In this document: piece after piece, positions 1 through 10,741 of the stretch
Numbering within the stretch: the stretch's first letter is position 1
Layout: each line of letters opens with the position of its first letter
Assembly: GCA_903840315.1 (NCBI GenBank)
Contig: CAIMFK010000011.1
Location: 1 to 64,000 of the forward strand
Reading direction: 5' to 3'
Source of the DNA: an uncultured Candidatus Saccharibacteria bacterium
Lineage (GTDB): Bacteria; Patescibacteriota; Saccharimonadia; Saccharimonadales; UBA4665
DNA: 64,000 nucleotides
Made by a program: the position numbers and the translations under genes
The notes under the pieces: generated by a model
What the model was told of the DNA's origin: nothing
Databases searched by the model: none
What the model saw: the letters and a program-made list of their open reading frames with translations, nothing else

Positions 1-141
1 CACCAATGGGTGACGCATCAGCTCCAGTAGCAATGCCAACTGAAACTCCTGCAGCCACACCTGCAGAGCCTACTATGGATAATGCTCCAGCAATGCCTGA
101 AGCACCAGTAGCACCAATGGGTGACGCATCAGCTCCAGTAG
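1..141 (+). repeat. 30-bp direct repeat within the coding tail
   Basis: Bases 1-30 and 112-141 are identical, with a period of 111 bases, which keeps the reading frame (37 codons). The repeat encodes PMGDASAPV within the Pro/Ala-rich tail. Perfect nucleotide identity over 30 bases suggests a recent internal duplication or ongoing slippage, so this protein probably varies in length between strains. Confidence 0.85.
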
Positions 142-170
142 ATGACAGTACTCAAAATCCAATGGTCTAA
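1..170 (+). CDS. C-terminal end of a Pro/Ala/Met-rich protein (5' truncated)
   Basis: The window opens inside a plus-strand reading frame that ends with TAA at 168-170. The visible 55 residues are low complexity, made of Pro, Ala, Met, Thr and acidic residues, and contain the block PMGDASAPV twice. The tail looks disordered, like the end of a surface-exposed or linker-rich protein. The N-terminal part lies outside the window, so the family cannot be named. A strong hairpin terminator follows 24 bases after the stop. The frame is supported by the in-register amino-acid repeat and the terminator, but function is unknown. Confidence 0.6.
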   Translation, partial: PMGDASAPVAMPTETPAATPAEPTMDNAPAMPEAPVAPMGDASAPVDDSTQNPMV

Positions 171-188
171 AAAAGATTTTATCTTTTT

Positions 189-220
189 AAAAAACCGTCG
201 ATTATTTCGACGGTTTTTTT
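189..220. terminator. Bidirectional rho-independent terminator
   Basis: A 7-bp perfect stem (195-201 with 207-213) with a 5-base loop is flanked by an A-tract (189-194) and a T-tract (214-220). It can therefore stop transcription from both sides. It serves the partial plus-strand gene ending at 170 and the minus-strand gene whose stop codon is at 219-221. Confidence 0.85.
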
Positions 221-1052
221 AATCTACAATATCTAGAAGTTTTTCTTTTCTGCTATTTAAATTAGGGGTAGCAGTTATTGTGCTCTTAGGATAGTTTAAC
301 TCCAAAAAACATTCTCTTATCACTATTTCTGAAATGTTCTTTTCGAAACTATTTATTCTAATATCCGGGTCAACCTCAACTAATATAATATCTTTTTTGC
401 GGACAGCATCAATGTGAGCATGCCTTGAATTTTTAACCTGTATTTTATGTGAAGGCATTTTTACGCCCCAATAATCAGAAAATATACTGATATCCCAGCC
501 TCGGTCAACTGAGCTTCCATGCCTGTTTTTTCTATCCTGACTTATTAAAGATAGAGTTGGATACCAATTTTCAGAACCAATTTCTTGAATTGAAATTCTT
601 TCTAGAAGAGATAGTATAGCAAACTCACCAAGAACACCCTTTAAATCACAGGTATCTTTTTCTGGTTGAGTACGATGCATTTCTTGTCTTGCAAGCGCTA
701 AATCTTGTGATATTTGTATTGTTTGTTTATAAACAGTTTCCGCTAATGACTTTGGTGGCAGTGCCTGATCCATAATCATAATTCCATCAACTGGCAGGTG
801 GGCACTTCTGATTTTTGCTTTTGCTACTAGTTCAGGGTTTTTACCACTAACTGCCAGTGATCCCAGAGCTCTCTCGTAAGAAATTTGCGCATCATCTAAA
901 TAATCGAGGCTATTATATTTATGCGCTTTTTCTAAAGCGATTTCACCAGCCCAAAACTGACCTTGAGCAGTTGAATTGTTCAAATGGCTCCGGGCTTGCT
1001 TATAATTACTCTTATTGTCAAGATAAGTTCTTAATACCGCTAAATCACTCAT
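219..1052 (-). CDS. Hypothetical protein with a PD-(D/E)XK nuclease-like C-terminal half
   Basis: A 277-residue soluble protein that I do not recognise by family. The N-terminal half is helical. The C-terminal half carries an ordered set of residues resembling a PD-(D/E)XK fold: a Glu in the helix GVLGEFAILSLLER, an Asp in DRGWDISIF, and a following strand with KIQVKNS, i.e. the E ... D ... QxK arrangement. This is a pattern match by eye, not a domain search. Start ATG at 1052; a plausible promoter lies just upstream on the minus strand (TTGTAA at 1090-1085, 17-base spacer, CATAAT at 1067-1062), leaving only 9 bases before the start. It is divergent from the dioxygenase gene. Possible roles include DNA repair or restriction. 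Confidence 0.6.
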   Translation of the reverse strand: MSDLAVLRTYLDNKSNYKQARSHLNNSTAQGQFWAGEIALEKAHKYNSLDYLDDAQISYERALGSLAVSGKNPELVAKAKIRSAHLPVDGIMIMDQALPPKSLAETVYKQTIQISQDLALARQEMHRTQPEKDTCDLKGVLGEFAILSLLERISIQEIGSENWYPTLSLISQDRKNRHGSSVDRGWDISIFSDYWGVKMPSHKIQVKNSRHAHIDAVRKKDIILVEVDPDIRINSFEKNISEIVIRECFLELNYPKSTITATPNLNSRKEKLLDIVD

Positions 1053-1131
1053 AAAGATAGTATTATGCCACTTTAGCTTATATTTTACAATCCTTAATAT
1101 AGGTGGCGGTAATTGTTATATACTTTATTCA

Positions 1132-1947
1132 ATGGAAAAAATCACGAGACTTGAAAAAATTCTCACCCCCAGCCCCAGAATGCCTGTAATTTTTGTAGGC
1201 CATGGCAATCCAATGAATGCTATTGCAGATAATAATTTTACTAGAAACTGGAAAAAATTAGGGAATCAATTACCCGATGCTCAAGCCATAGTAGTAATAA
1301 GTGCTCATTGGCTGACGAGGGGAACCCATGTTACTAATGCTCCTAAACAAGAGATAATTTATGACTTCTATGGTTTTCCTGAGGAGTTATACAACGTCAA
1401 ATTTGAAGCTAATGGTGACCCCAAAATTGCCAAATTATTAAAGGAGTACTTAATTAAATATGAGGCCAAACTAGACAACACCTGGGGTCTTGATCACGGC
1501 ACTTGGTCGGTATTGAATCACTTAAATCTTAATAAAAAAATTCCAGTTCTCCAAATAAGCCTAGACGTTGGCGCAACACTTGAGCAGGTTGTAGATACAT
1601 TTAAGCTGTTAAGACCGTTAAGAGACAAAGGTGTAATATTTATTGGGAGCGGAAATATTGTTCATAACTTGGGAATGGTAGATTTTGGTGGTAAACCTCA
1701 GGATTGGGCTATGAAATACGATGATAAAATAAAAGACGTTATCATCAACAAAGATATTAAGAGCCTTGTTAATCCATTGAAAATTGACTACACGGGTAAA
1801 TTTGCAATACCGACTGATGATCACTACAGGCCAATGCTGGCATCGATGGGGCTTCTTTATGAAGGCGAGATGATTAACTACTTTAATGAAGAGATAGATT
1901 TGGGAAGCATAGGCATGAGATCGTTTTTAACCGGTAGTGTTAATTAG
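1132..1947 (+). CDS. ygiD: DODA-type extradiol dioxygenase, LigB/YgiD family
   Basis: A 271-residue member of the LigB-like extradiol ring-cleavage dioxygenases (4,5-DOPA dioxygenase group). The N-terminus has the typical opening MPVIFVGHGNPMNAI (His24) followed by VVISAHW (His59). Further conserved stretches GSGNIVHNLG and DDHYRPML supply the other expected metal-binding or catalytic His residues. The length matches YgiD (about 260-270 aa). In this family a divalent metal opens catechol rings; the natural substrate here is unknown and may not be DOPA. A TATACT box at 1119-1124 sits 7 bases before the ATG and no Shine-Dalgarno is visible, so the mRNA may be leaderless. Its stop overlaps the convergent neighbour by 4 bases. 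Confidence 0.88.
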   Translation: MEKITRLEKILTPSPRMPVIFVGHGNPMNAIADNNFTRNWKKLGNQLPDAQAIVVISAHWLTRGTHVTNAPKQEIIYDFYGFPEELYNVKFEANGDPKIAKLLKEYLIKYEAKLDNTWGLDHGTWSVLNHLNLNKKIPVLQISLDVGATLEQVVDTFKLLRPLRDKGVIFIGSGNIVHNLGMVDFGGKPQDWAMKYDDKIKDVIINKDIKSLVNPLKIDYTGKFAIPTDDHYRPMLASMGLLYEGEMINYFNEEIDLGSIGMRSFLTGSVN

Positions 1948-2423
1948 CCTTCTGCTTTGGAAAATGGTTGAAGGGTAGGGTTCCATCCTATTTCTTGTCG
2001 CATATTATTGAGCTCTCTTACTAAAAGCTCATTATTATCATCAATCTTATTGTTCTGCAGAAGCTTAGTTTTGGTAAAACTACAATATGCAGAAACTAGC
2101 ACCAACGAGTGATCTAAAATGTCTCCTTCCTTATCAACCTTGACCAAATAGTAGTCATCTTCACCGCCAAAATTACATGTAGATTTATGAGCAATAATAG
2201 GCAATTCGGCATTTAAGCTTGTTTTTAGGCCAGCCAAAATTAAGTGATCATAACTTGTTCCCGGCACAAAATCTTCTCTTTTTCTAAGATCAATTAATGT
2301 TTTTATTTCGCTATTATAAATACCCATTAAACCTGATTCATAAATTGCTTTGTAAGAAAATCTTAAATAGTCTGCAATTACAGGATCAGATAATATATTT
2401 CTAGTAGGTTCAGATTCAAACAT
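1944..2423 (-). CDS. Hypothetical protein, 159 aa
   Basis: A soluble, acidic protein with no motif I can assign. It has no signal peptide or membrane segment. The start ATG lies 12 bases downstream of the CCA end of tRNA-Glu on the same strand, so the two may be transcribed together and the mRNA released by tRNA 3' processing. Its 3' end overlaps the convergent dioxygenase gene by 4 bases. The protein has scattered Cys (KSTCNFGG, SAYCSF), not in a recognisable metal-binding pattern. Confidence 0.6.
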   Translation of the reverse strand: MFESEPTRNILSDPVIADYLRFSYKAIYESGLMGIYNSEIKTLIDLRKREDFVPGTSYDHLILAGLKTSLNAELPIIAHKSTCNFGGEDDYYLVKVDKEGDILDHSLVLVSAYCSFTKTKLLQNNKIDDNNELLVRELNNMRQEIGWNPTLQPFSKAEG

Positions 2424-2435
2424 GGCAAATAATAA

Positions 2436-2512
2436 TGGTGATCCTGGCGGGATTCGAACCCGCGATCTTCTGGATGAGAACCAGATATCCTAAACCGCTA
2501 GACGACAGGACC
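2436..2512 (-). tRNA. tRNA-Glu (anticodon CTC)
   Basis: Read on the minus strand, the sequence folds as a complete cloverleaf. The 7-bp acceptor stem pairs 2512-2506 with 2446-2440 and includes one G-U pair. The anticodon arm is TCTGG / loop TTCTCAT / CCAGA, giving anticodon CTC (codon GAG, Glu). The T-arm contains GGTTCGAATCC, followed by discriminator A at 2439 and an encoded CCA at 2438-2436. Confidence 0.95.
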
Positions 2513-2527
2513 GATTAAAACATATTA

Positions 2528-2546
2528 TAACAGATTATATCTGTTA
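2528..2546. promoter_or_regulatory. Perfect 8-bp-arm palindrome upstream of tRNA-Glu
   Basis: TAACAGAT (2528-2535) and ATCTGTTA (2539-2546) form a perfect inverted repeat with a 3-base spacer. It overlaps two TATAAT-like hexamers on the minus strand, just upstream of the tRNA-Glu gene. It may be an operator or simply an overlapping set of -10 elements. No regulator is identified. Confidence 0.45.
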
Positions 2547-2657
2547 ATTCATTGGTGACATTCATTACCCTATATCTAATCTAAACTATACATAAAATAT
2601 TCCTGCTTATGTTACAATAACCTTAGATAGAAAAGTCACGAAAGGATAAGATAAAAA

Positions 2658-3236
2658 ATGGCAAAGGTACTGCTGGTCGAAGACGACAACAACCTTAGAG
2701 AAATTTACCAGGCACGACTTAGTGCTGAAGGCTATCAGATCATCACCGCCAGGGATGGTGAGGAAGGCCTAGCTCAAGCCGTAAAAGAAAAGCCGGATCT
2801 TATCATTTGTGACGTTATGATGCCAAAAGTAAGTGGTTTTGAAATGTTAGACATTTTAAGGTCCACTCAGGGTATTCAAAACACAAGAGTTATCGTGATG
2901 ACAGCATTATCTCAAGCCGAGGATAAAGCTAGGGCAGAGAAATTGGGTGCAGATATGTATCTGGTAAAATCTCAAGTTACCCTTGAAGATATGGCCAGAT
3001 CAGTTAGGAATATCTTGAATCAGGATGGACACTCATTGCCTAAAACAACTGCCACTGAACCAGTAAAAGCAGAAACTACTCCAACAGCACCTGCAGAAGC
3101 ACCTGATAAGCTAGAGACTTTAATAGGCCAAGAACAAACTCGTGAAGAGGAGGATAAATCTCAACCAGAGTTATTAACTCCAGACCAAGTATCTTCAGAA
3201 GCCACAAAAGACGAATCGAATAGTCAGAACCAATAG
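2658..3236 (+). CDS. Response regulator, receiver domain with a disordered acidic tail
   Basis: Residues 1-120 form a standard CheY-like receiver: acidic pair D9/D10, phosphoacceptor D52 (ICDVMMPK), T82 and K104. The lysine is followed by Ser instead of the usual Pro. Residues 125-192 are a Pro/Glu/Thr/Ala-rich, probably disordered tail, with no DNA-binding output domain. It therefore likely acts by protein-protein contact. No partner kinase is adjacent. An extended -10 (TG-T-TACAAT, 2610-2618) and a modest ribosome site (AAAGGA at 2641-2646) precede the ATG. The next gene starts 3 bases after the stop, indicating cotranscription. A close paralogue is at 29908-30300. Confidence 0.85.
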   Translation: MAKVLLVEDDNNLREIYQARLSAEGYQIITARDGEEGLAQAVKEKPDLIICDVMMPKVSGFEMLDILRSTQGIQNTRVIVMTALSQAEDKARAEKLGADMYLVKSQVTLEDMARSVRNILNQDGHSLPKTTATEPVKAETTPTAPAEAPDKLETLIGQEQTREEEDKSQPELLTPDQVSSEATKDESNSQNQ

Positions 3237-3239
3237 CTC

Positions 3240-3887
3240 ATGAGACTAAATCAGTTTTTAGCTAAGACAACTGATCTTTCGAGGCGTAGTGCAGATCAGG
3301 CAATTGCAGATGGTCGAGTTTTGGTTAATGAACAATTAGCCAAAGTTGGTCAATCGGTGGAAGAATCAGACTCAGTAAGACTTGACGGCAAATTGCTCAG
3401 CAGCTCCATAGAAACAAAAACAATCCAACTAAATAAGCCATATGGTTATGTCGTAAGCAAGGACGGCCAAGGAAGCAAAACCATATATGAACTTCTTCCT
3501 GATGAACTTCAAAATTTAAAACCCATTGGAAGACTTGACCGAAACTCAACTGGACTTTTACTCCTAACTAATGATGGCCATTTAAACCAGACACTAAGTC
3601 ACCCGTCCCACCAAAAGGACAAGGTTTACAAAGTTTTATTGCATAAAGAATTAAGCCCTGAAGATAAAATTAAAATCGAAATGGGAGTTGAACTGGAAGA
3701 TGGCTTAAGTAGACTTAAGCTCCTCGGAGGAGGTCAAAAATGGCAAGTTACAATGGCTGAAGGCCGCAATAGACAAATAAGAAGAACTTTTGACCTATTA
3801 GGCTATAAAGTCATAAAACTCCACCGAACAAATTTTGGTGAATATCATTTAGATGATCAGAAAAGTGGAAGCTGGATTTTTGTTTAA
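3240..3887 (+). CDS. rRNA pseudouridine synthase, RsuA/RluB/RluE/RluF family
   Basis: A 215-residue protein with an N-terminal S4 RNA-binding domain (about residues 1-45, MRLNQFLAKTTDLSRRSAD) and a catalytic domain carrying the family signature GRLDRNSTGLLLLTNDG. D100 in this motif is the catalytic Asp. The later motif GRNRQIRR is also conserved. These enzymes isomerise a specific uridine of 16S or 23S rRNA; which site is modified cannot be decided here, although RluB (23S helix 89) is the most widespread in Gram-positive lineages. It follows the receiver gene by 3 bases and precedes der, so a translation-related operon is likely. Confidence 0.9.
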   Translation: MRLNQFLAKTTDLSRRSADQAIADGRVLVNEQLAKVGQSVEESDSVRLDGKLLSSSIETKTIQLNKPYGYVVSKDGQGSKTIYELLPDELQNLKPIGRLDRNSTGLLLLTNDGHLNQTLSHPSHQKDKVYKVLLHKELSPEDKIKIEMGVELEDGLSRLKLLGGGQKWQVTMAEGRNRQIRRTFDLLGYKVIKLHRTNFGEYHLDDQKSGSWIFV

Positions 3888-3907
3888 AAATCTGACATAA
3901 TATATTA

Positions 3908-5278
3908 ATGAAAAGTTTGCCTATTGTAGCAATTGTCGGAAGAGCCAATGTTGGAAAGTCCAGTCTTTTTAATTCCATACTTTCTAAAAGAGAGGTAATT
4001 GTAGCAAGAGAGTCTGGAACCACAAGAGACTCAATCAGCTCTAAAGCAAGCTGGAAGAATCAGGATTTCTGGATTGTTGATACAGCCGGAATGAAAGATG
4101 CGGAAGATGACTTCGAATTAACTATTCAGGATCAAATTACCCAAGCGGTTGATGGTGCCGATGTAATAGTTGTTGTGACTGAAGCTGGAGCCACTATAAG
4201 TGAAGAAGACAGAAGAGTTGCTAAGATGGCCCTCCGGAGCAAAAAACCTGTCATATTGGCAGTAAATAAGTCCGACGACATCAATAACAGCAGGGTTCCT
4301 GAATTTATGAAGCTTGGAATAAAAGACATCATCGAGACTTCTGCTGCTCAAAACAGAAATATACATGTATTGCTCGATTCAATTATAAAACTAATTCCTG
4401 AAGCAAAAGCTGATGCTCCTGATAATCTGCTTAGGGTAGCGCTTATAGGGAGGCCAAATGTCGGAAAATCCCATCTATTCAATAGTCTTTCTAAAAAACA
4501 ACAGGCAATTGTGGCCAACGTTGCCGGTACCACCAGAGATATTAACCGAAACGTAGTTAGATATCATGATAGGGATATAGAAATTCTTGATACGGCTGGT
4601 ATTAGAAAAGCAAGCAAGATAGAGAAGGGAATTGAATACTTTAGCTATTTGAGAACTTTACACGCCATTGATCAGGCTGATATCTGTCTACTCCTTATGA
4701 CTGCTGATGAACTTAATGTTGCCGTGGATCAAAAAATTGCCGGCATGATAAAAGAAGCGGGCAAGGGGCTTATTCTAGTCGTTTCAAAGTGGGATGCAGT
4801 TGAGGAAAAAACTCCATTCACCAGAGACGAATTAGCGGCTCAGATTTCGCATACTTTTGATTTTATAGCTTGGGCACCATTAATCTTTACAAGTTCGGTT
4901 ACTGGACAGAACGTTACAAAGATTTTTGAAATAGTTACTCAAGTTGAAGAAACCAGAAAGCAAAGAATTGCTACTAAGGACCTAAATAGATGGCTTCAAG
5001 ATGTTATCGAGAAGCATCCTCCCGCAGGACTCAAAAACAGGATGCCAAAATTGAACTACATGGTTCAGGAGTCGGATAATGAATGTCCTAGCTTCAAAAT
5101 CTTTGGTAGTAGTACTAAATTCATCCACTGGAGCTATAGAAGATACATGGAAAAAAACCTGAGATACAAATATGACTTTACTGGAACTCCAATACAGCTA
5201 TGGTTCATTGAGAAGCACGTTGCTCATAAACACGGCCAAAGTCCAACTTATGGTAAGGAAAAAATACCAAAAAAATAA
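3908..5278 (+). CDS. der: Ribosome biogenesis GTPase Der (EngA)
   Basis: A 456-residue GTPase with two tandem G domains, the hallmark of Der. The P-loops are GRANVGKSS near residue 11 and GRPNVGKSH near residue 181. Both G domains carry DTAG, and NKSD and SKWD serve as the base-recognition motifs. A KH-like domain occupies the C-terminal 115 residues. Der is required for maturation of the large ribosomal subunit. A CATAAT/TAATAT element lies 4-6 bases before the ATG and no Shine-Dalgarno is seen, so a leaderless transcript is possible, or translation may follow from the upstream gene 20 bases away. Confidence 0.96.
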   Translation: MKSLPIVAIVGRANVGKSSLFNSILSKREVIVARESGTTRDSISSKASWKNQDFWIVDTAGMKDAEDDFELTIQDQITQAVDGADVIVVVTEAGATISEEDRRVAKMALRSKKPVILAVNKSDDINNSRVPEFMKLGIKDIIETSAAQNRNIHVLLDSIIKLIPEAKADAPDNLLRVALIGRPNVGKSHLFNSLSKKQQAIVANVAGTTRDINRNVVRYHDRDIEILDTAGIRKASKIEKGIEYFSYLRTLHAIDQADICLLLMTADELNVAVDQKIAGMIKEAGKGLILVVSKWDAVEEKTPFTRDELAAQISHTFDFIAWAPLIFTSSVTGQNVTKIFEIVTQVEETRKQRIATKDLNRWLQDVIEKHPPAGLKNRMPKLNYMVQESDNECPSFKIFGSSTKFIHWSYRRYMEKNLRYKYDFTGTPIQLWFIEKHVAHKHGQSPTYGKEKIPKK

Positions 5279-5366
5279 AAAGATAGCTATACTCTAAATA
5301 GATATGGCCTTATTTCAAAGAAAACAACCCGACGTTCAATCTAGTGCTCCTTTATATACTTTAAGC

Positions 5367-5942
5367 ATGTCTAAAGCGTTTTTGATTGTCGGATTAGGTA
5401 ATGTTGGTGCCGAATTCGATAACACTAGGCACAACATAGGGTTTCGGGCTATAGATAAGTTCTTTGAAGATCAAGAATTCAGTAATTGGATTAATAAGAA
5501 AGACATGAATTGTCTCATCGCCGATAAAAATATTGCTGATACAAAGGTATACCTTATTAAGCCAACTACTATGATGAATCTAAGTGGTGAAGCAGTCCAA
5601 AAGATTAGTAACTTTTATAAAATTGATAATTCAAAAATAGTAGTTGTCTATGACGAACTAGATATAAATTTTGGTAATATTCGAATAACAAGGGGAGGAT
5701 CTAGCGCCGGTCATAATGGAGTAAAGTCACTAATTCAACATATTGGAGAGGATTTCGGAAGGATCAGAATTGGTGTAGGGCCAAAAAATCCACCTCAAAT
5801 CGATAGTGCAGATTTTGTTCTTGGAAGATTCTCAAATAATGAAGAAGATCTAATGAAAGCTCTATTAAATGAAACCTCTAGCCTCATAACCGAAACTATT
5901 TTTAGTGACACTCTACCTAGCGAAACAAGAAAGTTTATTTGA
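5367..5942 (+). CDS. pth: Peptidyl-tRNA hydrolase
   Basis: Pth releases tRNA from peptidyl-tRNAs that drop off the ribosome. The core begins KAFLIVGLGNVG and continues with NTRHNIGF, which holds the catalytic His, then KPTTMMNLSGEAV, VVYDELDINFG and GGSSAGHNGVKS, all typical. The start is ambiguous. An in-frame ATG at 5304 would add a 21-residue low-complexity extension. ATG 5367 gives 191 residues, the usual family length, and has a TATACT box exactly 6 bases upstream (5355-5360), the spacing seen before several other genes here. I therefore prefer 5367. A second TATACT at 5288-5293 precedes the longer form. Confidence 0.93.
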   Translation: MSKAFLIVGLGNVGAEFDNTRHNIGFRAIDKFFEDQEFSNWINKKDMNCLIADKNIADTKVYLIKPTTMMNLSGEAVQKISNFYKIDNSKIVVVYDELDINFGNIRITRGGSSAGHNGVKSLIQHIGEDFGRIRIGVGPKNPPQIDSADFVLGRFSNNEEDLMKALLNETSSLITETIFSDTLPSETRKFI

Positions 5943-5943
5943 A

Positions 5944-6432
5944 TTAATTGGCCAGAAAATCTTGGGTAGTTAGATCGATTGGCAACTTAGTCTTATTATC
6001 GTAGTAAATAGGTATTTCGATTTGAGCCGGGTGAGGAGTCTTAATTAGATTTGTGGTGTTCAGATAATAATTTATTGCGTTTGAATTATTTGTTTCGAGT
6101 AATTTTTTGATCTCATATTGTGAGGATAACAATAATCGGTTACATGTATTATCTGATGTGTCAGTTAAATAAACTGGGTAGAAATCTATGCCGCTAACAT
6201 TTGTAGTTGAACCGACTGAAGTTTTCTGTTTATTTAAATAATTACCACATGTATTATTCAAGAATACTCCCGTAGATAAAGTGGTTAATTTGCCTGCACT
6301 ACTTTGCTGGATTGTTAACAAAATCACACCAATAAAAGCTATATTTAGTGCTACTGATAATATTATTCCAGTCCTAATTAAATTTACCTTATTTAAATAG
6401 ACTATTTTGTTATTTGATTTTTTATTTTTCAT
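5944..6432 (-). CDS. Hypothetical single-pass membrane protein, 162 aa
   Basis: A basic N-terminus is followed by one hydrophobic segment at about residues 18-43 and then an exported, Asn/Thr-rich domain of roughly 115 residues. The exported part contains two Cys (NNTCGNYLN and DNTCNRLL) that could form a disulfide. The topology is an N-in signal anchor. It has no recognisable enzymatic motif. It is convergent with pth, with its stop 1 base from that gene's end. A ribosome site (AAAGG) lies upstream of the ATG, and TATAAT-like boxes are present further out. Confidence 0.65.
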   Translation of the reverse strand: MKNKKSNNKIVYLNKVNLIRTGIILSVALNIAFIGVILLTIQQSSAGKLTTLSTGVFLNNTCGNYLNKQKTSVGSTTNVSGIDFYPVYLTDTSDNTCNRLLLSSQYEIKKLLETNNSNAINYYLNTTNLIKTPHPAQIEIPIYYDNKTKLPIDLTTQDFLAN

Positions 6433-6518
6433 ATTTGTAACCTTTTATAATATTCATAAACATTATATACCAATGATGTTTAAGTTTATATGGTTCGATA
6501 AATAACGAATTTAATAAC

Positions 6519-6863
6519 AAAAAAATGCCCAGAAATGAACAAACCTCCAGAGGGGGTGGGCACCGCTGGAGGTTTGATAACACCCTTCAACCCACCACAG
6601 CAGAAGCATCGAGCGCTACAAATAATGTCGTCGTGCCGGTCATAATGACCATCTTTTGGACTCGCTGACCCACATAGGGTCCTCTGTAACCAGAGGGAAG
6701 TTAAAGGGATTAGTTTACTTTAGAGAGTTATGTTTTTTTACGAACATAGCCGATTCATCAGTGGAGGGTAACAACTTTTGTAAAGGCACTCTCTAAAGCA
6801 ATCTAACAAATTGTTAGAATAGGGGTTATAAGGTACGAAGCTTTAGAAATATAAAGCTTACGA
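6519..6863 (-). ncRNA. Structured RNA gene of unidentified family, about 345 nt
   Basis: This otherwise gene-free stretch has its own near-consensus minus-strand promoter (6870-6898) and ends in a run of seven T (read on minus) at 6525-6519. Between them lie many perfect helices: 6838-6845/6852-6859 (8 bp), 6802-6808/6812-6818 (7 bp), 6718-6728/6788-6798 (11 bp, enclosing 6729-6734/6743-6748), 6681-6686/6691-6696, 6668-6671/6677-6680, 6638-6642/6646-6650 and 6540-6550/6566-6576 (11 bp). It lacks the tRNA-like end of tmRNA, the paired P4 core of RNase P RNA and the SRP RNA apical motif. The 5' end is estimated from promoter spacing. Strand and existence are well supported; the function is unknown. 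Confidence 0.75.
6526..6576 (-). terminator. 3' hairpin/pseudoknot terminator of the structured RNA
   Basis: An 11-bp perfect stem (6540-6550 with 6566-6576) has a 15-base loop. Six loop bases (6557-6562) are perfectly complementary to 6526-6531, which directly precede the T7 run on the minus strand. This gives either an H-type pseudoknot or two mutually influencing helices, one of which abuts the U-tract as an intrinsic terminator would. Confidence 0.65.
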
Positions 6864-6869
6864 ATTGCA

Positions 6870-6898
6870 ATATTATCAAATAAGTGTTCAAATGTCAA
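6870..6898 (-). promoter_or_regulatory. Promoter of the structured RNA
   Basis: Read on the minus strand: TTGACA (6898-6893), a 17-base spacer, and TAATAT (6875-6870). The -35 is a perfect sigma-70 consensus and the spacing is optimal. This is one of the strongest promoters in the window. Initiation is expected near 6863. Confidence 0.85.
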
Positions 6899-6965
6899 TA
6901 CTTTTATATATATTTGTAATCTTGTCAAATTGGTAATGCTAGCACTTTATTAGTAATATATAGGT

Positions 6966-7219: not shown

Positions 7220-9505
7220 ATGAAGCAACAGCTAGTAATAGTAGAGAGTCCAGCAAAAGCAAAGACCATAGAAAAGTTTCTTGGAAAAGATTTCAAAGTT
7301 CTTAGTAGCTTTGGACATGTAAGAGATCTTCCTAAAAAAGGTCTTAATATAGATGTTGCAGATAATTTTAAGCCCACCTATGCTGTATCTCCGGATAAGA
7401 CTAAAGTTATCAGGGAATTAAAATCTGCTGTAGCAAATTCCTCAGATATTTGGCTTGCAAGTGATGAAGACCGTGAAGGTGAGGCAATAGCGTGGCATTT
7501 GGCCAATGCACTAAAATTGGACATCAATAAGACAAAACGTATAGTTTTCCATGAAATTACAAAAACTGCGCTAGAAAAGGCTCTACAGCATCCTAGAACG
7601 ATAGATATTAATCTAGTTAATGCTCAGCAAGCTAGACGAATTCTTGATCGATTGGTTGGTTATGAGTTAAGTCCAGTTCTTTGGAAAAAAATTAGAACGG
7701 GGTTAAGTGCCGGAAGAGTTCAGTCTGTATCGGTAAGACTAATTGTTGAAAGAGAAAGAGAAATTAAAGATTTCGAATCCGCTAGCTATTATAAAGTTAG
7801 CGCTTTATTTAAAGGAGATAATGGAGAGGTCCTTGCAAATCTGGATAAGAATATCGATTCATTGGAAGATGCTAAGAAATTCCTAGAATGTTTGAACGAT
7901 TCAATCTTCACTGTTTCGAGTGTAAGCAAAAAACCCGGCAAGAGAAACTCTAGTCCACCATTTACTACAAGTACATTACAGCAGGAAGCTTCAAGAAAAT
8001 TCGGATATAGTCCTAGACAGACAATGAGTCTGGCGCAAAGATTATATGAGTCCGGTCACATTACTTATATGCGTACCGACAGCACGACTCTATCAAGCCT
8101 TGCCCTAGAAATGGCCAATAACTATATTGTCAATAATTTCGGGAAAGAGTACTCAAATCAGACTCAGTATAAAACTAAAAATGATTCGGCGCAGGAAGCT
8201 CACGAAGCAATAAGACCAACCGACTTCAATAATGAATCTATTTCTGGCGAAGAGCAGCAGAAAAAGCTATACAAGCTAATTTGGGAAAGAGCCTTAGCTA
8301 GTCAAATGGCTCCCGCTCAAGTTGAACGCACAGAACTTAAGATTGACATATCTAATTCAAAGAATTATTTCCTAGCCAAGGGTGAAGTTTTAGTTTTTCC
8401 AGGTTTTTATAAAGTTTATGGAAATATAAAAGACGATACTATATTACCTCCAATTAAAGAAGGTGAGAAATTAGATCTCATTGAAAGTACAGCCAATGAA
8501 GCATTCTCAAAACCACCCGCAAGATATTCCGAAGCTAGTCTAGTGAAAAAACTTGAAGAGCTTGGAATTGGTAGACCAAGTACTTATGCTCCTACAGTAT
8601 CCACGATTCAGACAAGAGGCTATGTAGAGAAAGTTGACGTTGAAGGTAAGCCAAAAATACTAAAAGTATTAAGACTTTCCAATAAAGTGGTTTCCGAAGA
8701 GGAAGAACAAGTCATTACTGGTGCAGATAAGAATAAGTTAGTTCCAACATCAGTTGCAGATGTTACTACCGATTTTTTAACTAAATATTTTGCCGATGTA
8801 TTGGATTACAAGTTTACTGCAAAAGTCGAAGATAGTTTCGACAAGATTGCCGATGGTAAAGAAGATTGGGTTAAAATGCTCGATAAATTCTATTCTGGCT
8901 TCCATCCACTAGTAGAAAAATCTGGGGCGGCAACTAGAGAAGAGGTTTCTAAAGCTAAGCATCTTGGTGATGATCCAAAATCTGGAAAACCTATTATTGC
9001 ACGCTTTGGAAGATATGGATTAATGCTGCAAAGAGGAGAGACAGAAAGTGAAGAAAAACCAGACTTCGCACCATTTCCAGAAGGTTATACTCTAGATAAT
9101 ATAGATCTAGATGCCGCTCTAATTATGTTCAGCTTACCAAGAGTAGTGGGAAAAACTAAGGATGGAGAAGAAATTACCGCAAATATTGGACGATTCGGCC
9201 CATACATAAAGGTAAAGTCTACATTTGTTTCCATTAAAGACAATGATCCGTTCAAGATTACTCTAGAAGAGGCACAAGAGCTTTATAATCAAAAACTAGA
9301 GCAAATTGCCAACAAATATATAGCTGAGTTTAAAAGCGGAATTAAGATAGCTAATGGGCCATACGGGCCATATATTACTGATGGCAAAAAGAATGCCAGA
9401 ATTAGTAAAGACACAGATCCAAAGACCATAACAGAGAAGGAAGCAGCAGCAATTCTCAAAAATGCGCCCGCAAAAAAGAAGTTTAAAAGAAAAACTAAAA
9501 AATAA
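7220..9505 (+). CDS. topA: DNA topoisomerase I
   Basis: A 761-residue type IA topoisomerase that relaxes negative supercoils. The N-terminal Toprim domain has ESPAKAKTIEKFLG and the acidic triad SDEDREGEAIAWH (D82, D84, E86). The strand-cleaving tyrosine is Y283 in SGHITYMRTDST. The catalytic core runs to about residue 560. Instead of Cys4 zinc fingers, the C-terminal part carries repeated glycine-rich topoisomerase C-terminal repeats (FGRYGLML, IGRFGPYIK, NGPYGPYITDG) and ends in a Lys-rich tail (KKKFKRKTKK) suited to DNA binding. A ribosome site AAAGAGA lies 4 bases before the ATG. Confidence 0.97.
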   Translation: MKQQLVIVESPAKAKTIEKFLGKDFKVLSSFGHVRDLPKKGLNIDVADNFKPTYAVSPDKTKVIRELKSAVANSSDIWLASDEDREGEAIAWHLANALKLDINKTKRIVFHEITKTALEKALQHPRTIDINLVNAQQARRILDRLVGYELSPVLWKKIRTGLSAGRVQSVSVRLIVEREREIKDFESASYYKVSALFKGDNGEVLANLDKNIDSLEDAKKFLECLNDSIFTVSSVSKKPGKRNSSPPFTTSTLQQEASRKFGYSPRQTMSLAQRLYESGHITYMRTDSTTLSSLALEMANNYIVNNFGKEYSNQTQYKTKNDSAQEAHEAIRPTDFNNESISGEEQQKKLYKLIWERALASQMAPAQVERTELKIDISNSKNYFLAKGEVLVFPGFYKVYGNIKDDTILPPIKEGEKLDLIESTANEAFSKPPARYSEASLVKKLEELGIGRPSTYAPTVSTIQTRGYVEKVDVEGKPKILKVLRLSNKVVSEEEEQVITGADKNKLVPTSVADVTTDFLTKYFADVLDYKFTAKVEDSFDKIADGKEDWVKMLDKFYSGFHPLVEKSGAATREEVSKAKHLGDDPKSGKPIIARFGRYGLMLQRGETESEEKPDFAPFPEGYTLDNIDLDAALIMFSLPRVVGKTKDGEEITANIGRFGPYIKVKSTFVSIKDNDPFKITLEEAQELYNQKLEQIANKYIAEFKSGIKIANGPYGPYITDGKKNARISKDTDPKTITEKEAAAILKNAPAKKKFKRKTKK

Positions 9506-9631: not shown

Positions 9632-9647
9632 GTTTAGATTATATAAT
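9619..9647 (+). promoter_or_regulatory. Sigma-70 promoter of the HARE-HTH regulator gene
   Basis: TTGACT (9619-9624), a 17-base spacer and a perfect TATAAT (9642-9647). The expected start is near 9654, 17 bases before the ATG at 9671, leaving room for the AAAGAGA ribosome site. An upstream in-frame TTG at 9647 overlaps the -10 and so cannot be the translation start. Confidence 0.88.
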
Positions 9648-9670
9648 TGTATAAGAGAACTAAAGAGAAT

Positions 9671-10741
9671 ATGGCAAGTACAAAATCCAAAATTGACTCC
9701 GAAAATCTAGATATCAAGACTTTTGTTAATGATGTCCTCGGCACTATCGATCAAGAAAGAGAGAAAGAGATTATCTCTAGAAGATTTGGCCTATTCGACC
9801 GAAAAGAAACACTTGAACAAATTGGCGAATTACTCGGAATTACCAGAGAAAGAGTAAGACAATTAGAAAAGTCTATTATAGCTAAACTTAGATCTAAAGC
9901 AGAGCAGGCCAAAATACCTCACCTCAATGAATTCGAAGATTTAGTTTTAGAAAAATTGAGCAGAGTAGGGGAGTTATCAAGAGTAACTTCATTATCTCTG
10001 GCCCTCAATAAAGATGCTACTAAAATTGATCAATCAAGAGTCGCATTTCTTGCTGAACTTTCTCAAAAATTAATAGTTTTAGAGGAAAGTGATTTTATTT
10101 ATTTATCAGTAGGGAATTCAGCGATTTTTGATGAAAAATCAATTAAAGAGAGTATCTCAAAGGTAATTAAAGCCGTTACTAAATTAGGTGAGCCTACCGA
10201 CATTGAAAAATTATCTCAGGAGGCAAAAATAGCCGATTCTAAGCGTTCTGAAGCGATATCTAGTATATCTAAGCAACTTGCATCATTAAACGGCAAATGG
10301 GGCCTCGTAAAATGGCCAATGGTTAATCCTAAGAACATCCGAGACAAGATATATGTGATCTTAAAAGAAAACAATAAACACATGCATTTTAACGAAATTG
10401 CCGATGCTATTCAGAAATCCGACTTCAAAAGGAAAAATGTAACAACCCAAGCTATTCACAACGAACTCATCAAAGATAAGAGATTTGTTCTTATTGGTAG
10501 AGGTATATATGCGCTTAAGGAATGGGGCTACAAGAAAGGAACTGTTTCAGATATCATTTCAGAAGTTCTTAGAAAAGAAGGCAAAGCACTACATAGAGAT
10601 GAAATTGTAAAAAAAGTTCTTGAGAGTCGCTACGTTAAAGAAACTACAATTCTACTTAACCTACAAGGCAAAGATCAGTTCAAAAGAGTAGCCAAGGCTA
10701 CATATGAGTTAGATGAATCAAATCTTGCAGTAGCAGAATGA
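9671..10741 (+). CDS. Sigma-region-4 / HARE-HTH domain transcription regulator
   Basis: A 356-residue DNA-binding protein. Residues about 25-80 match sigma-70 region 4 with its helix-turn-helix (SRRFGL...TLEQIGELLGITRERVRQLEKSI). The sigma region 2 domain needed for a complete sigma factor is absent. The C-terminal half has one or two HARE-HTH winged-helix domains (around residues 215-285 and 290-350; HMHFNEIADAI and ALHRDEIVKKVL), the module found in the RNA polymerase delta subunit and in chromatin proteins. The combination suggests an RNA-polymerase-associated regulator. ATG 9671 is chosen over TTG 9647 because of the promoter position and ribosome site. An operator-like array lies upstream and a terminator follows. 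Confidence 0.82.
   Translation: MASTKSKIDSENLDIKTFVNDVLGTIDQEREKEIISRRFGLFDRKETLEQIGELLGITRERVRQLEKSIIAKLRSKAEQAKIPHLNEFEDLVLEKLSRVGELSRVTSLSLALNKDATKIDQSRVAFLAELSQKLIVLEESDFIYLSVGNSAIFDEKSIKESISKVIKAVTKLGEPTDIEKLSQEAKIADSKRSEAISSISKQLASLNGKWGLVKWPMVNPKNIRDKIYVILKENNKHMHFNEIADAIQKSDFKRKNVTTQAIHNELIKDKRFVLIGRGIYALKEWGYKKGTVSDIISEVLRKEGKALHRDEIVKKVLESRYVKETTILLNLQGKDQFKRVAKATYELDESNLAVAE

Follow-up and report, generated by a model that had tools for sequence, protein, structure and literature searches.

What is encoded by a stretch of some 350 bases in the genome of a Saccharibacteria bacterium that combines a strong promoter, many perfect helices and no protein gene? The initial annotation of the window, the 64,000-nucleotide stretch of DNA analysed here, took it for an unidentified structured RNA gene, either lineage-restricted or a very divergent form of a housekeeping RNA. 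The near-perfect minus-strand promoter that it described, TTGACA-N17-TAATAT, is confirmed at exactly 6898-6870 (minus strand, as are all RNA features below), with the -35 box TTGACA at 6898-6893 and an extended -10 element, TGATAATAT, at 6878-6870 that adds a TG. Promoter-like matches are no commoner in this AT-rich region than in its shuffles (5 observed versus 10.1), and so the match alone is no proof. Conservation among relatives argues that this sigma-70-type promoter is real: their consensus reads TTGACA..TTTGCTANAAT, an exact TTGACA occurs in 107 of 123 full-length relatives (a set chosen through loop and promoter), and an alignment of homologues retrieved without using the promoter conserves its block as well. 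With the start estimated from the -10 box and the end, also an estimate, set at a run of seven U, the RNA gene spans 6519-6868, about 350 nt. The minus strand folds at -109.5 kcal/mol (z = -5.57), a stability equalled by none of 100 shuffles, and the predicted perfect helices are present, most of them backed by covariation. The longest open reading frame in the transcript stretch has a median of 35 aa in relatives versus 43 aa in their shuffles, bearing out the reported lack of protein genes; a coding gene is ruled out by these lengths together with indels and covariation.

The search of Rfam by covariance models suggested at the outset gives the RNA no known name. At gathering score there was no match in the window or in divergent members of the family, the raiA motif and all other Rfam families included, and at permissive thresholds nothing in the window was significant, the best weak match having E = 0.16. 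No paper on a saccharibacterial structured RNA was found in the literature. The idea of a very divergent SRP RNA, 6S RNA, tmRNA or RNase P draws on the RNA being core, single-copy and strongly promoted, and on the fact that neither SRP RNA nor 6S RNA was found in this genome; 6S RNA had no covariance match in the window or elsewhere in the roughly 742 of 751 kb read. The same genome inventory argues against it. Where the initial annotation missed a tmRNA tRNA-like end and an RNase P P4 core, the stretch also matches neither tmRNA (RF00023 or ARAGORN) nor the RNase P covariance model; the genome encodes both at other places, tmRNA at G000:C12:187915-188320 (70 bits) and RNase P at G000:C3:20417-20759 (234 bits). 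SRP RNA had no covariance match in the stretch or the genome, and RF00169 was absent from 60 of 60 genomes of the order, with 11 of 14 control genomes positive. In the fetched genome tblastn with approximate query sequences (E. coli Ffh; EF-Tu) found EF-Tu and no Ffh. The SRP pathway seems, from these searches, to be missing from this genome and order. With Ffh not found and RF00169 missing in all 60 genomes, one would not expect an SRP RNA here, and a divergent one was rejected. Because RNase P and tmRNA are encoded elsewhere and the SRP pathway is seemingly absent, and with no significant Rfam match even at permissive thresholds, we regard a divergent housekeeping RNA as very improbable. What Rfam does annotate in the genome comprises rRNAs, tRNAs, RNase P, tmRNA, SAM and cobalamin riboswitches, an L10 leader and a DUF3800-IX RNA.

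The distribution of the RNA is that of a core gene. Within the family, nucleotide searches retrieved homologues from 83 of 93 genomes, representing 40 of 41 genera, and their alignment conserves the RNA blocks and the promoter but not the flanking sequence. Across the order, a search under strict filters with a covariance model built on the 5' domain finds the RNA in at least 175 of 247 genomes (106 of 129 genera). Among 35 genomes that seemingly lacked the RNA or lay outside the order, weak matches appeared in 13, and 12 of these sit in loci showing the features of the RNA. For f2, another large family, a strict pattern picked up the RNA in 90 of 150 genomes, always as one copy. It is single-copy in 84 of 92 genomes, a backwards control giving no matches, and the 742 of 751 kb read of the own genome hold no second real copy of the loop hairpin. 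Outside the order the exact terminal loop had one chance-like match; 19-mer matches in Streptomyces, Salinarimonas, Akkermansia and others were dismissed as chance, with no RNA around them. Most of the genomes surveyed are metagenome bins.

The genomic surroundings are equally stable. Nearly all of the 82 loci compared keep the order topA/dprA-[RNA]-pth-der, with those genes on the opposite strand and pth convergent to the RNA gene; window neighbours were named by Pfam, and dprA by reading the sequence of its cluster. With the flanking conserved genes on the opposite strand, a riboswitch or other cis-acting leader was rejected. Directly downstream, on the same strand, the window encodes a small protein without a Pfam match (5944-6432) that was not recovered among the conserved neighbours in relatives. 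A protein with a sigma-70 region 4 and a HARE-HTH domain lies at 9647-10741, and its cluster recurs beyond topA in the loci of many relatives.

The collection of homologous regions and the covariation test that the initial annotation had proposed were carried out on 116 non-redundant sequences, with a home-made, tree-based null rather than R-scape. Several helices covary, and the RNA thus has the conserved, covarying helices of a structured non-coding RNA. At the 5' end the hairpin P1 (CGTAAGCTTTA / TAAAGCTTCG, 6836-6862) differs in its stem between relatives yet re-pairs. A conserved single strand, ACCUUAUA(A)CCCC (6822-6834), follows in both the f1 and f2 families. The next helix, P2 (UCUAAC / GUUAGA, 6802-6819), has an alternative: its GUUAG also pairs with CUAAY at 6713-6709. 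The two pairings are mutually exclusive and both are conserved, each with 92-99% standard pairs in 111-114 sequences and few double changes. A GUUAG that chooses between two CUAAC strands would be a possible conformational switch. The 13-bp helix P3 (6715-6801; 6801-6789 with 6727-6715) encloses the hairpins P3a and P3b and changes on both sides at 10 of its 13 pairs, with p down to 1e-5 against the tree-based null. Further on, the long-range helix P4 joins CCCUUUAAC (6700-6708) to GUUGAAGGG (6583-6591) and shows the compensatory sets AAC/GUU, AAG/CUU, CAC/GUG and GAC/GUC across families. Absence from Rfam, conservation, synteny and covariation all uphold the original proposal of a lineage-restricted structured RNA gene. 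On these comparative grounds the window contains one member of a previously undescribed RNA family, structured, non-coding and present in single copy, which belongs to the core gene set of the surrounding order of Saccharibacteria.

Loop 1 of P3a, UGUUACCCUCC (6763-6773), is a nearly invariant, C-rich 11-nt loop with invariant columns. It reads UUACCCUCC, or UUACCUCC in some lineages. In the window and at loci noted alongside it (L465, L467, L469, L471 and L473), loop 1 is similar to the 16S rRNA 3' terminus of this genome, GGAUUACCUCCUUU, which holds the anti-Shine-Dalgarno sequence. We take from this likeness a lead only, namely that the loop may be linked to translation initiation or 16S maturation. 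Loop pairing with 16S, part of 23S, 5S, RNase P and tmRNA gave no clear excess over shuffled loops, the lowest value being 0.05 among 20 comparisons. In another order of the class, locus L472 (about 1450-1720) holds a likely divergent homologue with P4 and a loop 1 of the form CACCCUCC; its terminal loop is unrelated to that of the order studied here.

At the 3' end, the terminal hairpin (6540-6576) pairs 6576-6567 with 6549-6540. Its core pairs are 100% paired in the 116 sequences while using all four Watson-Crick types. Several exceed every pair of the tree-based null (p about 0), and the stem has 135 double-change cells versus 28 in shuffles. The loop that it closes, GCGGUGCCCACCCCCUC (6550-6566, core UGCCCACCC at 6562-6554), is exact in 80 of 83 homologues retrieved without using it, and each of the 63 loci that the 5' domain retrieved has a CCCACCC-loop hairpin downstream. 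Two clade-specific loop classes exist, GCGGUGCCCACCCCCUC and GYGAWGCCCACCCUURC, so that the core is flanked by GCGG..CCUC or by GYGA..UURC according to clade. Just upstream, the G-rich strand GUGGUGGGU (6590-6598) can pair with GCCCACCCC of the terminal loop (6561-6553), and GGGUG precedes the hairpin in 54 of the 63 loci. We propose that the GGGGUGGGU strand and the loop form a pseudoknot; it lacks covariation support because the strand is nearly invariant in most families. Loci L103, L121 and L268 have lost the G-rich strand and retained the loop. The conserved U tract directly follows the terminal stem in most relatives. The U7 run (6525-6519) on which the transcript end was first placed is real; in this species it begins about 14 nt past the stem and not directly at it. 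Within 6562-6525 the loop's UGCCCA could also pair with the UGGGCA right before U7 in this species, an alternative terminator that could compete with the other roles of the loop.

What could this loop be for? A scan of IMG/VR by exact loop, in which a hairpin required a stem of at least 4 bp directly outside the loop, shows that about 70 viral contigs carry the terminal hairpin alone, with an identical loop on unrelated, self-complementary stems. The f1 loop was found in 26 viral contigs, with hairpin stems at 26 of 27 sites, and the f2 loop in 63, of which 44 have hairpin stems. Reversed-loop controls gave 0 contigs for one pattern and, for the other, 19 contigs with 0 hairpins, which rules out a chance origin. 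Stems are unrelated between phage lineages and to those of the hosts, and the clade-specific flanks of the core are copied along with it. Judged by these sequences, the isolated viral hairpins come in both clade-specific loop versions of the RNA and are phage-encoded copies of the host element proposed to be recognised. For most viral contigs the host was assigned by loop type, which makes the tracking of hosts partly circular.

Of 65 unique contexts, the viral hairpin lies between genes in 61. The hairpins are oriented in sense to their neighbours (46:9 for upstream genes, p = 2e-7; 42:12 for downstream genes). A U tract follows in 16 of 65 versus 3% of random places, and promoter-like sequence lies upstream of 46% versus 11%. 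Some copies stand inside reading frames, and positions vary between lineages. One site recurs, between a small post-portal gene and a downstream acidic, scaffold-like gene on contigs with terminase and portal. Here homologous phages whose portals are 62% identical carry the first loop (L228-like) or the second (L353), so that the loop difference within a phage lineage at one site parallels the difference between host clades. In a second phage lineage the hairpin lies between two large conserved protein genes. A search for further portal relatives yielded one new phage, L460, with a portal 48% identical; at the same site between the small and the scaffold-like gene it has a different long hairpin (about 4160-4240), perhaps a copy of the loop of another host clade.

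One reading is that the viral sites are DNA elements, for attachment, packaging or replication origin, that match the 3' end of the host gene by accident. Each phage has about one copy, and attachment sites are often found at the 3' end of an RNA gene. This reading sits badly with stems that are self-complementary yet related neither to one another nor to the stems of the hosts, and with the 46:9 strand bias. On contig L232, one of the 26 with the f1 loop, an f1-type prophage hairpin adjoins a host stretch with a full f1-type RNA, and the two copies are in opposite orientation, not the direct repeats of attL and attR. We consider an accidental DNA element the least probable of the readings discussed. 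The L232 region (54-6900 and 7911-8393) has prophage genes with their own hairpin next to the full host copy, and these genes include DNA methylases and an FtsK-like protein fused to an exonuclease-like domain.

We favour, with a probability of roughly 55%, the view that the 3' hairpin is the binding handle of a ribonucleoprotein and that the phage RNAs mimic it as a decoy or hijack element. A host factor, most likely a protein judging from the conservation pattern and possibly acting with the RNA's own G-rich strand, would read the whole terminal loop, and phage-made hairpins would compete for or recruit this partner. The loop is exact while stems drift in both host and phage, it is kept where its cis partner is lost, and clade-specific flanks are copied, all of which points to a handle that is read as a whole; L103, L121 and L268, together with 63 of 63 loci found by the 5' domain alone, illustrate its retention. 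The hairpin is absent from host mRNAs and present in phages, which suggests that phages either recruit the partner or compete for it; this would explain exact phage loops on freely drifting stems.

The main rival makes the hairpin a cis-acting element of RNA stability or processing, through which a host factor protects or trims RNA ends without any decoy. The core RNA would simply end with this hairpin, and phages would set it at gene ends or transcript starts to stabilise structural mRNAs. In its favour, the sense-oriented phage hairpin often starts 0-20 nt past a stop codon or directly behind a -10 box, and it turns up repeatedly where portal and scaffold genes join. Two observations sit uneasily with a decoy: many phage hairpins occupy constant positions between structural genes, as an mRNA element acting in cis would too, and single mRNA hairpins may be too few for a sponge unless very abundant. 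A cis element has its own difficulties, as host mRNAs go without the hairpin (one copy in 742 kb of the own genome, one per family genome) and some phage copies lie within reading frames at positions that differ between lineages. On balance we hold it to be unlikely, though still a serious competitor.

A further alternative is antisense-type mimicry, in which the phage CCCACCC loop pairs in trans with the host GGGUGGGUU strand and breaks the host pseudoknot. The GGGUG found upstream of the hairpin in most loci retrieved by the 5' domain would supply the target, and L214-type phages, read closely, have no partner strand adjoining their hairpin. Simple pairing would not need the clade-specific flanks that phages copy, however, and the pseudoknot itself is without covariation support and its partner lost in some hosts. 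Antisense mimicry is distinctly improbable in our estimation.

How does the proposed handle relate to known systems? OLE, ROOL and GOLLD are large orphan bacterial RNAs. Another large structured bacterial RNA is the raiA motif RNA, ModT (PMC11706538). Like these, the saccharibacterial RNA comes from a conserved non-coding gene of large size, is extensively structured, and has long-range helices together with a proposed pseudoknot. It differs in having no covariance-model match, in lineage, architecture and conserved motifs, and in a terminal hairpin that is copied by phages. Bacterial 6S and Ms1 RNAs are single-copy, promoter-driven and a few hundred nucleotides long. The RNA resembles them in copy number, own promoter and size, and 6S was not found in the window genome, but it gives no 6S covariance match and lacks a long rod with a central bubble. 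For the viral side, the closest parallel is Racr, solitary repeat units that act as RNA-based anti-CRISPRs by phage RNA mimicry (PMC10651486). In both cases phage genomes encode single copies mimicking a host RNA element; here the end hairpin of a core RNA is copied rather than a CRISPR repeat, and the mimicry is putative. The hairpins of CsrB-type sponge RNAs and pseudo-ToxI have invariant loops, bind protein and can be decoys. By analogy, our hairpin with its invariant loop would be a candidate decoy, although it is one specific hairpin and not a set of repeats, has no CsrA-type GGA motif and adjoins no toxin gene.

Taken one step further, and with the odds slightly short of even, Saccharibacteria may possess a core ribonucleoprotein built on a class of RNA unknown elsewhere, which phages would block or hijack with clade-matched mimics of its 3' hairpin; that the mimicry is of a core, non-CRISPR host RNA is a joint part of this reading and equally tentative. 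Saccharibacteria are epibionts, and human mouths are among their habitats. With the covariance models and loop patterns used here, the gene and candidate phages can be annotated at once. If the reading is true, one of the largest groups of the candidate phyla, with organisms seemingly without SRP, would have a hitherto undescribed core RNA machine; the phage-copied loop would mark the working part of this RNA and serve as a ready probe for its partner; and phage RNA mimicry, so far a matter of CRISPR repeats and type III antitoxins, would extend to a core cellular RNA.
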